Source: Gemmatimonadota bacterium (GTDB lineage: Bacteria > 4572-55 > J002). From it: a stretch of 64,000 bases of DNA. Both the position numbers and the translations under genes were made by a program. The stretch spans positions 1 to 64,000 of the forward strand of contig RFFQ01000113.1 of assembly GCA_003697105.1 (NCBI GenBank). The letters are read 5' to 3'. This document shows, piece after piece, positions 53,257 to 64,000 of this stretch (positions are counted from its first letter, which is position 1; each line of letters starts with the position of its first letter). The notes below the pieces were generated by a model. It was given only the letters and a program-made list of their open reading frames with translations, had not been told where the DNA came from and did not search any database.

Positions 53257-53760
53257 TCAAAATGACTGAAATTGATGCTGATAGCGGACACGGTTTTGCC
53301 GAAAGGCTTCCATGGTGATCATAGCGACCGAATTTGCCAAATTGTAAGCGCGAATGTTCCCCAAAATGGGAATTTTCAGACACCGCTCTGTGTACTGTTC
53401 CCGAAGCGCGGCGGGTAAGCCGTGCGTTTCATTACCAAACAGAAAGAGATCGCCCGGTTGAAATTCAACGTCGGTATAGTAGCGGCTGCCAAATTTGGTA
53501 ATCAGATAAAAATTAAAATCGGTTAGGGGAAAGTCCTTTAGGGACGCATATATCTGATAATCCAAGTGTTCCCAGTAGTCAAGTCCGGCACGTTTAACGG
53601 TACGGTCACTCAACACAAACCCAAAGGGGCGGATAAGATGCAAGCGTGCCCGAAGTCCGGCGCATAACCGCCCGATATTTCCGGTATTTTCCGGAATTTG
53701 AGGTGAATATAAACCGACATGAAAGGTCGGGATTTCCCGTTGGTGGGGTGATCTTTCCAT
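53257..53760 (-). CDS. trmL: tRNA (cytidine/uridine-2'-O-)-methyltransferase TrmL
   Basis: VGLYSPQIPENTGNIGRLCAG...LFLFGNETHGLP...IPILGNIRAYNLANSVAM; SPOUT family. Confidence 0.93.
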   Translation of the reverse strand: MERSPHQREIPTFHVGLYSPQIPENTGNIGRLCAGLRARLHLIRPFGFVLSDRTVKRAGLDYWEHLDYQIYASLKDFPLTDFNFYLITKFGSRYYTDVEFQPGDLFLFGNETHGLPAALREQYTERCLKIPILGNIRAYNLANSVAMITMEAFRQNRVRYQHQFQSF

Positions 53761-57092: not shown

Positions 57093-57327
57093 GCGAGTCT
57101 GAATCCATCTTTAGTTATCGTTTTTTGTGAGAGTGTCCTCCGGTTGGGGCGCTTTTTCCCTGTGAAGGTTATACGATCTCTGGATTCGATTGTCAATGAT
57201 AAAACCCCATCCATTTTCCATGATTGGGCTATTGTGGATGCCTTGAAAAGGTTGTATATTGGGCGTCCACTCTAGCGAATCCATTTTGCGATCTCTATCA
57301 CAACATTTTTATGGCAAACTCGGGCTT

Positions 57328-59127
57328 ATGATTTCTCCCTATTTTCAATATAAAGATTTTATGCAACAGCATTATGGTACTCAACTTCACCGGATTCCAC
57401 TGGATATGGGTGATAGTTGTCCCAATCGCCTGCCGGATGGCTCCGGGGGGTGTACGTTTTGTAATCTGCGGGGCAGTAGAGCGATTCAAACCCTCGGTTA
57501 TGAAACGGTTTATGAGCAAGTTGATGCCGCTATCCGCTTTGCCCAGAGACGCTACCGGGCGACCCAATTTATCGCTTATATTCAGGCGTTTTCGGCGACT
57601 TTTGGGGCGAAGCGGCAACAGCAATATCTGGATTTGCTTTCCCGCTTCCCTTTTAGAGCGGTAGTCTTTGGCACCCGGCCGGATTATTTAACCCGATCCG
57701 CTTATGCTTTTTTGCAACAGCTTAATGAGTCGCTTGAAGTGTGGGTGGAGCTTGGTGTGCAGACCGTCCATGATCGCACTCTCCGGCGGATTAATCGGGG
57801 CCATGATTGGAGCGCCAGTGAACGGGCTATCCAGAAGCTACATGACACCGGTCTTCGGGTTGCCGTCCACGTGATTTTGGGGTTGCCCGGCGAAACTCCC
57901 GAAGACTTCCAATATACTGCCAATACCCTGGCGTCACTGCCGATTTCTGGGGTGAAAATCCACAATCTGCATATCGAAAAAGGTACGACTCTCGCTAAAG
58001 AACATGCGCTTACGCCGGTGCCTACCTTGATGGAATATGAATACGCCGAACATCTCATGGATTTTATCCGGCGGATGCCGCCAGACATCCCCATTATGCG
58101 TATCCATACGGACACGTTGCCGGAAGAACTCATTGCGCCCAAATGGCATATGGATACCCAACAGTTTAAGGCGTATGTAATTCGTCAAATGGTGTATCGT
58201 CAGTGGCGGCAAGGTGATTTATACCGCCATGGCTCGCCCTCTATGCCCATTGATCCTGAACCACCCGCGCCGGTCGCTACGGCGGATGGCTCCATTACCT
58301 TCTGGAGTGCCGATTATAAAGAACATTACCACGCAGCCGTCGGTGCGCGAACCGAAGCGTTGGAGAAGTTTATCCGGCCTTCTAACTTAATCGACCGATT
58401 AAAAAAAGGGGATGTCCGGTTGCTGGATGTTTGCTTCGGGTTAGGGTATAACAGTTTAATGGCGCTGGATGTGGCTCTTGCCACCAATGGTAAAGAACCG
58501 CTCCATGCGTTGGAGATTGTGGCGTTAGAAATGGATAAACGGGTGGTGCAAGCGGCGAGTCAGGCGCTTATCCCCTTAGAGACGGATTCATTTTGTTGGC
58601 AAACGGCTTTGCACGACCTTGTAACCCACGGTCACTGCACCGTAAGCCCGTCGGCTTCCATTGATATACGCTGGGGCGATGCACGTTTTACCGCTTCTCA
58701 ACTTCAACCCCATAGCATTGATATTATCTATCTGGATGCGTTTTCGACACAGCGGAACAGTGAACTCTGGACGGTTGATTTTTTCCGACAGTTACGAAAT
58801 CTGATGAAAGCGGATGGCGTTCTGATTACGTATTGCGCGGCGATTCCGGTGCGAAGCGGTCTTCTTGCCGCGGGTTTTCAGGTGGGAGAAACACCGCCGG
58901 TGGGGCGAGACCGGGGCGGAACTATCGCCGCCATCCAAGCGAACCATATTCCGCGACCTCTTCCGGCGAATGATCGTCATCTCATCGAGCACACGACCCG
59001 CGGGATTCCCTACCGCGACCCGTATGGCGTCTGGACAAATACGGAAATCTTAAGGCACCGGGAAGCGGAGATTTTAAAGTATAAGCAGGCTCGTGCATCG
59101 AACAGAATCGGGGCGGAGGTTTCATGA
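57328..59127 (+). CDS. Fusion: TIGR01212-type radical SAM (YhcC/YtqA-like) + MnmC-like (DUF752) methyltransferase
   Basis: N-term HRIPLDMGDSCPNRLPDGSGGCTFCN; C-term LLDVCFGLGYNSLMAL...IDIRWGDAR...IDIIYLDAFSTQRNSELWTVDFFRQL. Start revised from 57259. Confidence 0.9.
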   Translation: MISPYFQYKDFMQQHYGTQLHRIPLDMGDSCPNRLPDGSGGCTFCNLRGSRAIQTLGYETVYEQVDAAIRFAQRRYRATQFIAYIQAFSATFGAKRQQQYLDLLSRFPFRAVVFGTRPDYLTRSAYAFLQQLNESLEVWVELGVQTVHDRTLRRINRGHDWSASERAIQKLHDTGLRVAVHVILGLPGETPEDFQYTANTLASLPISGVKIHNLHIEKGTTLAKEHALTPVPTLMEYEYAEHLMDFIRRMPPDIPIMRIHTDTLPEELIAPKWHMDTQQFKAYVIRQMVYRQWRQGDLYRHGSPSMPIDPEPPAPVATADGSITFWSADYKEHYHAAVGARTEALEKFIRPSNLIDRLKKGDVRLLDVCFGLGYNSLMALDVALATNGKEPLHALEIVALEMDKRVVQAASQALIPLETDSFCWQTALHDLVTHGHCTVSPSASIDIRWGDARFTASQLQPHSIDIIYLDAFSTQRNSELWTVDFFRQLRNLMKADGVLITYCAAIPVRSGLLAAGFQVGETPPVGRDRGGTIAAIQANHIPRPLPANDRHLIEHTTRGIPYRDPYGVWTNTEILRHREAEILKYKQARASNRIGAEVS

Positions 59128-60089
59128 CAACGGCGACCTCATTTTGGATTGTGGCCCCCCAAACCGGCCAATTTCGCTCAGAATCGTTGCCCCCTTTAGC
59201 CCCAAATGAGGTGGGTGTACGCACCCTATATAGCGGGATTAGTCGCGGTACCGAACGGTTGGTTTTTAAGGGCGATGTACCGGTTTCCCAATATCCGGTT
59301 ATGCGGGCACCATTTATGGCAGGAGAATTTCCTTTTCCGGTTAAGTACGGCTATTGTAACGTGGGAGTGGTAGTGGAAGGTGTCCCAGCATGGCAGGGAG
59401 CACGGGTATTTAGCTTGTTTCCACATCAGGATTATTTTCATCTTCGCACAGATGATCTGCTGCGTATCCCGGAGACGGTACCCTCCGAGCGAGCCGTTTT
59501 GGCGGCAAATATGGAGACTGCACTAAACAGCATTTGGGATAGCGACCTGCGGATTGGCGACCGGGTTGCCGTCATCGGTGCCGGGGTGGTGGGGTGCTTA
59601 ATTGCCTATCTTGCCGCCCAAATTCCAGCGGTCAATGTGACCCTGATCGATACATATCCGCCACGGCAGACCATTGCCGATCACTTGAACATCCCATTTC
59701 AAACACCGGATCAGGTGCAGAGCGAGTTTGACCGAATTTTTCACGCCAGCGGCCATCCGGCAGGGTTACAAACGGCGTTACAGTGGGCGGCACCAGAAGC
59801 GCAAATTATCGAAGCGAGTTGGTTTGGAGATACAGAAGTGTGTTTACCCCTTGGGGAGGCATTTCACTCCCGGCGGTTGCAGGTTATTGGTTCGCAAGTG
59901 GGATCGGTTGCCATCTCTCGCCGGACACGATATACTTCCCGGCAACGCTTGGCATTAGCACTCTCACTTCTCGCGGATGACCGGCTGGACGCGTTGTTCA
60001 CGGATCGTATTGCCTTTGCGGATTTACCGGAGCAGTATCCCCGCTTGTTGAATGCCGCGTCCGTACTGGGCATCATTGTGAAATATTAG
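59124..60089 (+). CDS. MDR-family (zinc-type alcohol dehydrogenase-like) oxidoreductase
   Basis: LYSGISRGTERLVFKGDVP...VIGAGVVGCLIAYLAA; ATGA overlap with the preceding gene. Confidence 0.83.
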   Translation: MTTATSFWIVAPQTGQFRSESLPPLAPNEVGVRTLYSGISRGTERLVFKGDVPVSQYPVMRAPFMAGEFPFPVKYGYCNVGVVVEGVPAWQGARVFSLFPHQDYFHLRTDDLLRIPETVPSERAVLAANMETALNSIWDSDLRIGDRVAVIGAGVVGCLIAYLAAQIPAVNVTLIDTYPPRQTIADHLNIPFQTPDQVQSEFDRIFHASGHPAGLQTALQWAAPEAQIIEASWFGDTEVCLPLGEAFHSRRLQVIGSQVGSVAISRRTRYTSRQRLALALSLLADDRLDALFTDRIAFADLPEQYPRLLNAASVLGIIVKY

Positions 60090-60095
60090 GGATAT

Positions 60096-60143
60096 GAGTT
60101 GGGGAGTTTAGGAGTTTGGGAGTTTAGAAGTTAGGGAGTTAAA
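60096..60143. repeat. Degenerate 8-bp tandem repeat (GAGTTTRG)6 abutting the next start codon
   Basis: gagttggg|gagtttag|gagtttgg|gagtttag|aagttagg|gagttaaa in exact 8-bp register. Confidence 0.85.
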
Positions 60144-63100
60144 TGGATATATCAAAGCAGATCGAACAGTGGCAACACCAGCCGGGGATAGAAACGGCAG
60201 TTGGCTTATTGGAAGCAATGGAAACAACGCCGGTGCAAGTTGAACTTGCTCCCAGTTGCCTTCGGCTTACCGGTAAAAGTGATTTTTTACGAAACCTGCC
60301 GCAATATGAGTTACGGTTGCGTTGGGCACAAACGGCTTTACGCTGGATTCGAGAAACTCCGTTTAAATTGGTCGATTTATTCACAATGCGGGTAAAAGAA
60401 TACCCAAACCGGGTATTGTTTCAGGAGATGCGCGGTACGATGCCGCACTACTGGACGTATCGCCAAGTTGATCGGATGGTGAAGGAGATTGCCACAGCGT
60501 TCTATACGGTTGTACCGGCGTCTCCGCGGGTCGCGATTTTTGCGGAAAACTGTCTTGGTGGGGCATGTGCAGACCTCGCCTGCCTGTTTTATGATATTTT
60601 AGATACACCGCTCAATATTCATTTTGATGATGAGACCTTGCTCGATATTTTGGATCGGTTGCAGATTAACATTGTGGTGACCGATACAGAGAGCCGTTGC
60701 CGCCGCTTGGAGAATCTCCGGCGAAAGACTGCCCGTCCTTTTGTAGTATTCGTTGTTCAACGGCAGATCAAGCTTCATGAAAATGATACCTATTTTTTGG
60801 ACGAATATTGTAAGCATTTAAGCCAGGAGCAGATCGACACCCAGCTGGCAAACCGTCCCCGCCGGGATTTGCGCGATGTTGCGACCGTGATGTTCACTTC
60901 GGGAAGTACCGGTAAACCCAAAGGGATTGCCTTTTCGGAGTACCACTTGGTCAGCAAACGTTTTTGTCGTGCCGCGGCTTTGCCCAAAGTGGGGGATAAC
61001 GAGGTGTTACTCTGCTATTTACCGCTTTTCCATACGTTTGGGCGATATTTGGAAATGCTGGGCACGATCTATTGGGGGGGTACGTATGTTTTTACCACGA
61101 ATACTTCTGCTGAGAATCTGCTCTCCTTGTTCCCGCAGGTCAACCCAACCGGGTTTATCAGTGTGCCGATCCGGTGGGTCCAGTTATACGAAAAATGTTT
61201 GAAAAAGATAAAACATGAAACCGATTTGCAGGCGGTACAACTAGCCGTTCGTTCCGTGATCGGACACCGGTTGCGGTGGGGGCTTTCCGCCGCGGGGTAT
61301 CTTGACCCCAAAATCTTCCGTTTTTTCCAGCGGAATGGCGTGGATTTATGTAGCGGGTTTGGTATGACGGAAGCCACCGGCGGCATTACCATGACACCGC
61401 CCGGTAATTATGTGGAAAATGCCGTGGGGATTGCCTTACCGGGTATCGATATCCGGTTAACGGATAACGGCGAAATGCAGATCAGTGGGCATTACATCGC
61501 CCGGTATTTAGATGATTTGCCGAGTGCCAGTGCCGCGATCCCCTATCCAGAGGAGGAGGTGTACTGGCTCTCGACCGGTGATCTGTTTCAAGTGACCCCC
61601 GAAGGTTTTTACCAGATTATTGACCGCACAAAAGATATTTACAAAAATAACAAAGGGCAAACGGTCGCTCCGGTCAAAATGGAGAAAAAATTTACCGGAG
61701 TCCCGGGAATTAAACGGACCTTTTTAGTCGGGGATGGCAAACCGTACAATGTCCTCTTCATTGTACCGGACGAAACAAGCGACTTCATGCAGAAATTTCG
61801 CACGGAAGAGAGCCGCCGAGAGTATTTTCAACAATTGATTACCACCGCGAATCAAAAATTGGCGCCGTATGAACGGGTAATCAATTTTGCCATTTTAGAC
61901 CGGGATTTTGATCTCAAACGGGGGGAACTGACCCCCAAAGGTTCGTTCAATCGCAAAATCATCGTGGCGCATTTTAGCCACTTAATCGATGAACTTTATC
62001 AGCGTGAATATGTAGAATTGGCGTGCGATGAGGTCTGTGTGCGGATTCCACGCTGGTTTTTCCGGGATCAAGGTATGTTAGAAGGGAGTATCTCCATCTC
62101 TCGCATGGGGTTGCACAATTTGACGACCGGTAAAATGTTACCTTTAAAACGGGTGGCGGAGTCGGGTACAACTCTTATTGGGGATTTAGAATATACGGTC
62201 ACGAATGGCGTCATTGACTTAGGGCTATTTTCCCGCCAACCCCGCCTCTGGGTCGGAAATCCGGCACTGATCGCATTTTGCATCTGTAAAGAGGGCTGGG
62301 ATGTACCGCTGGATGGGGTTTCGGCGCACCTTTTTCGTCCGTGGGAGATTGCCCGGCAATATGACCCAACGGAGTTACCAGTACCGCAAAAAGTGCGGGA
62401 TGCCGAGTTGCTTCGCATCAATCGGCTGGTCTGTACGGCAATTTTGGGTCCTACGGAACTGGCGTATTCAGCGTTGGAAGAACTTAGTACGGCGTTAACA
62501 GAGGTTGATAGCCGTTTAGGTGATGTCATCCGCCGCCGGTTGGAAACCTTAGCCCGCCACCCAGACGAAGATATCCGCTGTTTCGCGTATCAAATTTTGT
62601 TACTCGATGAGCCGGTCTCCAATTACAACCTAGCTTTTCCGGCATTTATGCAATCTGGCTTATCTTTTCTCAATAAAAAATCGATAGAAAATATTGCCTT
62701 TGGTAAGATGGAAAAAAAGCGGCTGGAAGCGCTTCGCCAGCGGCTGTTTAGTTACCGGATGCAACTAAATTGGCCCCTCAATGAGAGCATGCGCCAACAG
62801 TTTGAGCGCATCTTCCAACTGCTGGTCAGTTTTGTGGACCAACATCCGGAATTTTACCATCCCTTGCGGGCAGAACTGGCAAGTTGGGTTCTCCACCGCA
62901 ACGACCGGGCTTTGGCTGAGATTGCAGAACGGTATTTTAATGAATTGTATCAGGTTTATCAGAGCAAGTTTGAGGGCGACCTCGATACTTACCAGCAGGC
63001 AGATTGGGACGAAAAAATTGTATTTGATGATGGTTTGGTGGCGGATGAAATTCAGCGCATAAAAGCCGTTTTCCGGGCGGCGCCGTTCCTCAAACATTCC

Positions 63101-64000
63101 GTGATGCTCGCATTTGATGAACGCCAATTTCATCTGGCAGATGTCCCGCCGGGTGGAATTTGGGTCTCGCGGGTAGAATCGGGACATTATCGTGACCAAT
63201 ACCGGGTCTGTATTAATACCATCCATGACGCCCATTTTGATCTACAACTCGTACTCAGCGACGACCTCGATCAAGCGATGACCAAAGAATCCGTTTACTG
63301 GCATGTGGCGATCAGCGGGTATCCTTACGGGCAATCGGTGTTACCGCGAATGGGGTGTTTTGATACCGGAAGTGGCGCTTTGGCAACACGTTATACCGGC
63401 GAACTGAGCGTGTGGGAGAAAATCCGCGAGTTTTCCAGTGCTCGTATCCCCGGCAAGACGTTTCCGGGACTCAATGCGTGGCGAAAGTTGTTTATTCAAG
63501 CCTTAGCCGGATTTTATCGCGGCTGGCACAATAGCGGCTTTCAGATTGTGCCGGGCGTCATCTCGCCCAATAACATTGCCGTACCGGAACTCGATTTTTT
63601 GGAAAGTTCCACGATCTTGTCCATGATCGGCTGGCAAGAGTACACCAACACGCTTTCCCTCATTAAACCGATGCTGCAAAACTTCTACTTCAAGACGGTC
63701 GCTCACTATCCCTGGTGCAAAGATGATTTGCATGTGGATTGGATATTTGATGCCTGCCAAGAAGCGTTAGGACGGGAGCCGGCGCAGGAATTTTTCGCCC
63801 AACTCCAGACGGAACTCAGCGGGGAACGGCTGGTATGGCTGGATGGTACGCCATTGGGACAATGCCTAGAGCGGTATCTCAAGGATAACGAGGATTTCTA
63901 TTACCTGCCCCTTGCCGTCCGCAAAGCCATTGAGTGGTACAAAACGTGGGAAAAAACGAATGAGGCAATTCACTCCACTGCCCGGAAAGAAGTGGTGTTG
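60143..64000 (+). CDS. Very large AMP-binding (acyl-CoA synthetase-like) fusion protein, truncated by the window edge
   Basis: Segments translated from 60143 and at the window end are open in frame (at least 1286 codons to 64000); [71 protein letters not shown]; >600 aa follows the ligase. Not listed in the track because no stop is in the window. Confidence 0.88.
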   Translation, partial: MDISKQIEQWQHQPGIETAVGLLEAMETTPVQVELAPSCLRLTGKSDFLRNLPQYELRLRWAQTALRWIRETPFKLVDLFTMRVKEYPNRVLFQEMRGTMPHYWTYRQVDRMVKEIATAFYTVVPASPRVAIFAENCLGGACADLACLFYDILDTPLNIHFDDETLLDILDRLQINIVVTDTESRCRRLENLRRKTARPFVVFVVQRQIKLHENDTYFLDEYCKHLSQEQIDTQLANRPRRDLRDVATVMFTSGSTGKPKGIAFSEYHLVSKRFCRAAALPKVGDNEVLLCYLPLFHTFGRYLEMLGTIYWGGTYVFTTNTSAENLLSLFPQVNPTGFISVPIRWVQLYEKCLKKIKHETDLQAVQLAVRSVIGHRLRWGLSAAGYLDPKIFRFFQRNGVDLCSGFGMTEATGGITMTPPGNYVENAVGIALPGIDIRLTDNGEMQISGHYIARYLDDLPSASAAIPYPEEEVYWLSTGDLFQVTPEGFYQIIDRTKDIYKNNKGQTVAPVKMEKKFTGVPGIKRTFLVGDGKPYNVLFIVPDETSDFMQKFRTEESRREYFQQLITTANQKLAPYERVINFAILDRDFDLKRGELTPKGSFNRKIIVAHFSHLIDELYQREYVELACDEVCVRIPRWFFRDQGMLEGSISISRMGLHNLTTGKMLPLKRVAESGTTLIGDLEYTVTNGVIDLGLFSRQPRLWVGNPALIAFCICKEGWDVPLDGVSAHLFRPWEIARQYDPTELPVPQKVRDAELLRINRLVCTAILGPTELAYSALEELSTALTEVDSRLGDVIRRRLETLARHPDEDIRCFAYQILLLDEPVSNYNLAFPAFMQSGLSFLNKKSIENIAFGKMEKKRLEALRQRLFSYRMQLNWPLNESMRQQFERIFQLLVSFVDQHPEFYHPLRAELASWVLHRNDRALAEIAERYFNELYQVYQSKFEGDLDTYQQADWDEKIVFDDGLVADEIQRIKAVFRAAPFLKHSVMLAFDERQFHLADVPPGGIWVSRVESGHYRDQYRVCINTIHDAHFDLQLVLSDDLDQAMTKESVYWHVAISGYPYGQSVLPRMGCFDTGSGALATRYTGELSVWEKIREFSSARIPGKTFPGLNAWRKLFIQALAGFYRGWHNSGFQIVPGVISPNNIAVPELDFLESSTILSMIGWQEYTNTLSLIKPMLQNFYFKTVAHYPWCKDDLHVDWIFDACQEALGREPAQEFFAQLQTELSGERLVWLDGTPLGQCLERYLKDNEDFYYLPLAVRKAIEWYKTWEKTNEAIHSTARKEVVL

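Follow-up and report, generated by a model that had tools for sequence, protein, structure and literature searches.

In Escherichia coli, the FAD-dependent MnmC1 domain of MnmC makes nm5U34 from cmnm5U34, and the MnmC2 domain then methylates nm5U34 (PMC3648344). MnmEG is also able to form nm5U directly, and MnmC2 can therefore work without the oxidase (PMC3648344). A 2025 review attributes nm5s2U34 to MnmC or MnmL and mnm5s2U34 to MnmC or MnmM (PMC12548931), and work from 2023 stated as an open question which enzyme makes nm5U34 in organisms that have an orphan MnmC2 and lack MnmC1 (PMC9976899). MnmL, MnmM and MnmC2 are each already known. In the literature within our reach, which excluded the primary MnmL paper, we found neither a description of an MnmL–MnmC2 fusion nor biochemistry on any such fusion. 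That paper, by Jaroch et al. in 2024, is said to mention fusion proteins in its abstract, so the Rosetta-stone link may have been anticipated in part, and its priority is uncertain.

The window analysed here is a 64,000-nucleotide stretch of a Gemmatimonadota contig. On its + strand, an open frame from 57328 (ATG) to 59127 (TGA) encodes 599 amino acids without an internal stop. Starting at an alternative in-frame TTG at 57259 would lengthen the frame; alignments of its orthologues begin at about the 57328 ATG and not at the TTG. The earlier note had read this gene as a natural fusion of a radical SAM enzyme with a methyltransferase, which our analysis confirms: the single frame carries a TIGR01212 and an MnmC2-type domain, and the arrangement is repeated in other genomes, including 13 complete orthologous fusions. 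Because 14 other genomes carry the same fusion, we rejected chance or an assembly artefact as its source.

Assignment with hidden Markov models agrees with the two domains originally proposed, a TIGR01212 radical SAM domain and an MnmC-like methyltransferase, and PF04055, PF16199 and PF05430 all scored over their cut-offs. The N-terminal MnmL/YtqA domain, which includes Radical_SAM_C (PF16199), spans residues 5–299 (57340–58224, + strand) and matched TIGR01212 at 226.1 bits against a cut-off of 180. Its radical SAM cluster motif, C31-x10-C42-x2-C45 (57418–57462, +), is present, and the three cysteines, the putative [4Fe-4S] ligands, are invariant in all 14 aligned fusions. A linker that differs in length and sequence among orthologues (58222–58284, +), with the lowest model confidence at residues 303–307, joins this half to the MnmC2-type methyltransferase domain (58261–59049, +), which includes a C-terminal YRDP..W tail. 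PF05430 scored 88 bits against a gathering score of 22. The MnmC2 model NF033855 matched residues 327–530 at 109.6 bits (E 1.8e-31), which is under its cut-off of 136 and counts against a bifunctional reading; an unfused MnmC2 (L088) also fell under that cut-off, at 108 bits. The residue equivalents of MnmC2 are present: alignment places the SAM-binding loop FGLGYN (residues 370–375, with the glycine loop FGLGY at 370–374; 58435–58452, +) at Gly66–Gly70 of E. coli MnmC, E401 (58528–58530, +) at Glu101, which contacts the SAM ribose, and D470 (58735–58737, +), within DAFS..RNSELWT, at Asp178 (roles in PMC3648344).

Among solved structures, the C-terminal half is closest to the standalone MnmC2 of Aquifex aeolicus (3vyw; 113 bits), with which it aligns over nearly the whole domain from TADGS to YRD, and the N-terminal half is closest to Elp3. 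An AlphaFold2 model built from the 14-row fusion alignment contained two confident domains (pLDDT 86.6, pTM 0.85), and its Foldseek matches were Aquifex MnmC2 (3vyw) at the top, E. coli MnmC and Elp3. The methyltransferase half falls with a tRNA enzyme, Aquifex MnmC2, and not with other methyltransferases. The view that it is of MnmC rather than YtqB type is also upheld, by the PF05430, NF033855 and 3vyw matches. Elp3 likewise acts on U34 (cm5U), but its reaction adds a carboxymethyl group and it carries an acetyltransferase domain, unlike the fusion, on which the Elp3 model scored 52.5, far under its cut-off of 350.

Bifunctional MnmC, as found in E. coli and Yersinia, combines MnmC2 with MnmC1 and carries out the last two mnm5(s2)U34 steps in one polypeptide, as we predict for the fusion; the two share a homologous MnmC2 domain with equivalents of Glu101 and Asp178. 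They differ in domain order, the methyltransferase being C-terminal in the fusion, and in the first step, performed by an FAD oxidase in MnmC and predicted to fall to an unrelated radical SAM domain in the fusion. No MnmC1 domain (TIGR03197) was detected in the fusion protein, which is therefore not an MnmC and only possibly MnmC-like in function. The MnmL/YtqA of Bacillus subtilis belongs to the same radical SAM family as the fusion, which is over the TIGR01212 cut-off, but it and MnmM/YtqB are encoded by two separate genes, and MnmM (PF06962) represents another methyltransferase family, one absent from the source genome.

Apart from the fusion, that genome (4.18 Mb, 96.9% complete) has no TIGR01212 protein over the cut-off and no PF05430 protein. 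A genome-wide search returned no separate MnmC2, no match to MnmM (PF06962) and no MnmC1 reaching its cut-off. The earlier note had proposed looking for mnmE and mnmG and had named a separate, intact mnmC or mnmM, combined with a lack of complementation, as evidence against its reading. We found mnmG (922 bits) and, by reading contigs, mnmE (L186:14449–15870, – strand; 443 bits, cut-off 253), whose product ends in FCIGK, but no separate MnmL, MnmC2, MnmC1 or MnmM. We saw no MnmA in the 1.25 Mb (30%) of the genome examined for it, a result that bears on that portion alone. The phylum is represented by two genomes in the collection, and the other, G001, of the same class, has an unfused MnmL and no MnmC2.

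Several neighbouring genes in the window were also recorded. About 3.5 kb from the fusion, on the opposite strand, lies a gene for a TrmL-like wobble-nucleotide 2'-O-methyltransferase (53257–53760, –), with 157 bits to TIGR00185, under the cut-off of 191. Immediately downstream is an alcohol-dehydrogenase-like gene (59124–60089, +; weakly BchC-like). Its start codon and the stop codon of the fusion share the sequence ATGA, an overlap that suggests co-transcription; this gene is not kept beside the orthologues examined. It is followed by a frame of more than 1286 codons that leaves the window (60143–64000, +) and whose start, as we read the sequence, resembles an AMP-binding acyl-CoA synthetase.

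The fusion occurs in at least 15 species, the source and 14 further genomes, from several bacterial phyla. A sample of 386 genomes spread over the domain yielded two further fusions, in Termititenax and Cloacimonadota genomes (G123 and G223, at 51% and 42% identity, respectively). One pattern-based scan of the species-genome collection, using the methyltransferase alignment, gave 14 loci, these two among them, a number that is a lower bound on the family given the nature of the scan. The gene is complete at 13 of the 14, and all 13 are fusions in which the radical SAM domain precedes the methyltransferase, with 33–68% identity per domain; the remaining locus is severed by contig ends, with its MnmL half on another contig (L107). 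The hosts include Pontiellaceae and other Kiritimatiellales, a Lentisphaerae MAG, Candidatus Termititenax, a Cloacimonadota MAG and Campylobacterota (Sulfurovum, Sulfurospirillum, Helicobacteraceae and others). A search of viral contigs for relatives of the fusion found none. Long frames in G148, G241 and G344 were considered as other MnmL fusions and rejected, being overlapping or upstream open frames with no second domains.

A tree built from 60 MnmL domains united the 14 fused domains from complete copies, including that of the window, in one clade with support of 100/100 and placed the window domain with the Kiritimatiellota/Lentisphaerota rows (99/97). We relied on this tree because that of the methyltransferase domain had long branches and resolved the fused rows too weakly. 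The single clade is compatible with the two genes having fused once, with later transfer or differential loss, but falls short of proof. The orthologues have no conserved gene neighbourhood, and the genes downstream of the fusion vary, including DAHP synthase (L068, L072), argC (L070) and others. At the Helicobacteraceae locus, a DTW-domain gene (L077:3477–3977, +) overlaps the end of the fusion gene; we take this domain to mark the family of tRNA acp3U enzymes.

The fusions fall into two types. Type A (n = 8) comprises the window, six Kiritimatiellota/Lentisphaerota genomes and Termititenax, and none of these eight genomes encodes a TIGR01212 protein (E <= 1e-20) or a PF05430 protein other than the fusion. 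Every aligned type A row keeps E401, D470, an FGLGYN or FGMGYN loop and DAFS..RN.ELWT, and the Termititenax copy is as similar to the window in its methyltransferase half (50% identity) as in its MnmL half (49%). Type B (n = 7) comprises the Campylobacterota and Cloacimonadota genomes (L075, L076, L077, L078, L079, L080 and L081), whose copies share 47–51% identity with the window in the MnmL half and 33–37% in the methyltransferase half. Here all seven copies have lost the DAFS..N.ELW motif after the aspartate and five have D at the position of E401, but every one retains the YRDP..W tail at its C-terminus. Each type B genome also has a second, unfused MnmL (in G395 a contig end leaves just a fragment of it), and a separate MnmC2 occurs in two of the seven. 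A second MnmL thus accompanies 0/8 type A and 7/7 type B fusions (Fisher p = 1.6e-4, uncorrected for kinship); relatedness among six of the seven type B genomes means that this value carries the weight of a few independent events. It is possible that the methyltransferase half of type B has changed function.

Outside the fusions, MnmL is variously linked to methyltransferases. Its gene adjoins that of MnmM in three genomes (G053, G107 and G327), in G268 it and an MnmC2 gene are arranged head-to-head, and in G148 an unfused mnmL and mnmG are divergent neighbours (L046:4652–7605). Three f12-family genomes (1.5–1.6 Mb) have both a separate MnmC2 and a separate MnmL. Across the 386 genomes, co-occurrence of standalone MnmC2 with MnmL, based on hand counts (12/26), was not significant (Fisher p = 0.21), which counts against the bifunctional reading. 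By hand count in the same sample, MnmC2 and MnmM are both missing from about 120 of the roughly 142 MnmL-bearing genomes, indicating that MnmL need not always serve mnm5. Where MnmL stands alone, nm5U may often be the end product, or MnmL may have an unrecognised methyltransferase partner or a different role.

Since MnmC1 and MnmC2 catalyse successive steps in E. coli (PMC3648344) and MnmL and MnmM have been assigned to the corresponding ones (PMC12548931), the fusion should carry both. We consider it probable that it is a bifunctional enzyme converting cmnm5(s2)U34 to nm5(s2)U34 and then to mnm5(s2)U34, with a radical SAM domain in place of the FAD-oxidase half of MnmC; here we infer what each domain does, in which order and on which substrate. 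In this scheme, MnmE and MnmG would put cmnm5 (or nm5) on U34, and the N-terminal MnmL domain would take the carboxymethyl group off cmnm5(s2)U34 by reductive SAM cleavage at a [4Fe-4S] cluster bound by C31, C42 and C45. The freed amine of nm5(s2)U34 would then be methylated by the C-terminal MnmC2 domain with a second SAM to give mnm5(s2)U34, making the fusion the functional equivalent of bifunctional MnmC, with the FAD oxidase swapped for a radical SAM domain.

The two halves could instead serve separate branches, the methyltransferase acting mainly on nm5U34 made by MnmEG with ammonium and the radical SAM domain catalysing a different or additional tRNA reaction. Direct formation of nm5U by MnmEG and the independence of MnmC2 from the oxidase (PMC3648344) would permit this, as would the fact that MnmL turns up in far more of the sampled genomes than either MnmC2 or MnmM does and occurs alone in G001. 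We nevertheless regard it as unlikely, as the work cited in the review places MnmL at nm5s2U34 formation (PMC12548931), and both the fusion and the adjacency of MnmL to a methylating partner favour sequential steps.

A substrate other than tRNA U34, whether another RNA or a protein, seems quite improbable to us. Radical SAM enzymes are functionally versatile, and E. coli, our control, has a TIGR01212 member, presumably YhcC, despite having MnmC, so family membership is no proof of the MnmL reaction. However, the nearest solved relatives of both halves are U34-modifying enzymes, and the source genome has MnmE and MnmG with no other MnmC2, MnmC1 or MnmM to complete the pathway. We give very little credence to the idea that the methyltransferase half is degenerate, a mere tRNA-binding appendage on what is in effect an MnmL. 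That account suits type B, with its lost motif, altered E401 and additional MnmL, but all signature residues are kept throughout type A, the window copy included, the Termititenax methyltransferase is conserved like its MnmL half, and the fused domain is the only MnmC2 in the source genome.

Under the bifunctional reading, a radical SAM route would suit these anaerobic lineages because no flavin oxidase is needed. More tentatively, and with somewhat less than even confidence, we propose that the family represents a widespread O2-independent counterpart of MnmC in anaerobes, and that in type B, where a second MnmL has been kept, the methyltransferase half has been turned to a new use. The recurrence of the same fusion across phyla links MnmL and MnmC2 functionally. 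Because eight genomes from several phyla have no other member of either family, the fusion would name MnmL as the maker of nm5U34 there. It also offers one protein in which both half-reactions are separable by point mutants, and suggests that nature has twice combined these two steps in a single chain, using flavin in one case and radical chemistry in the other.
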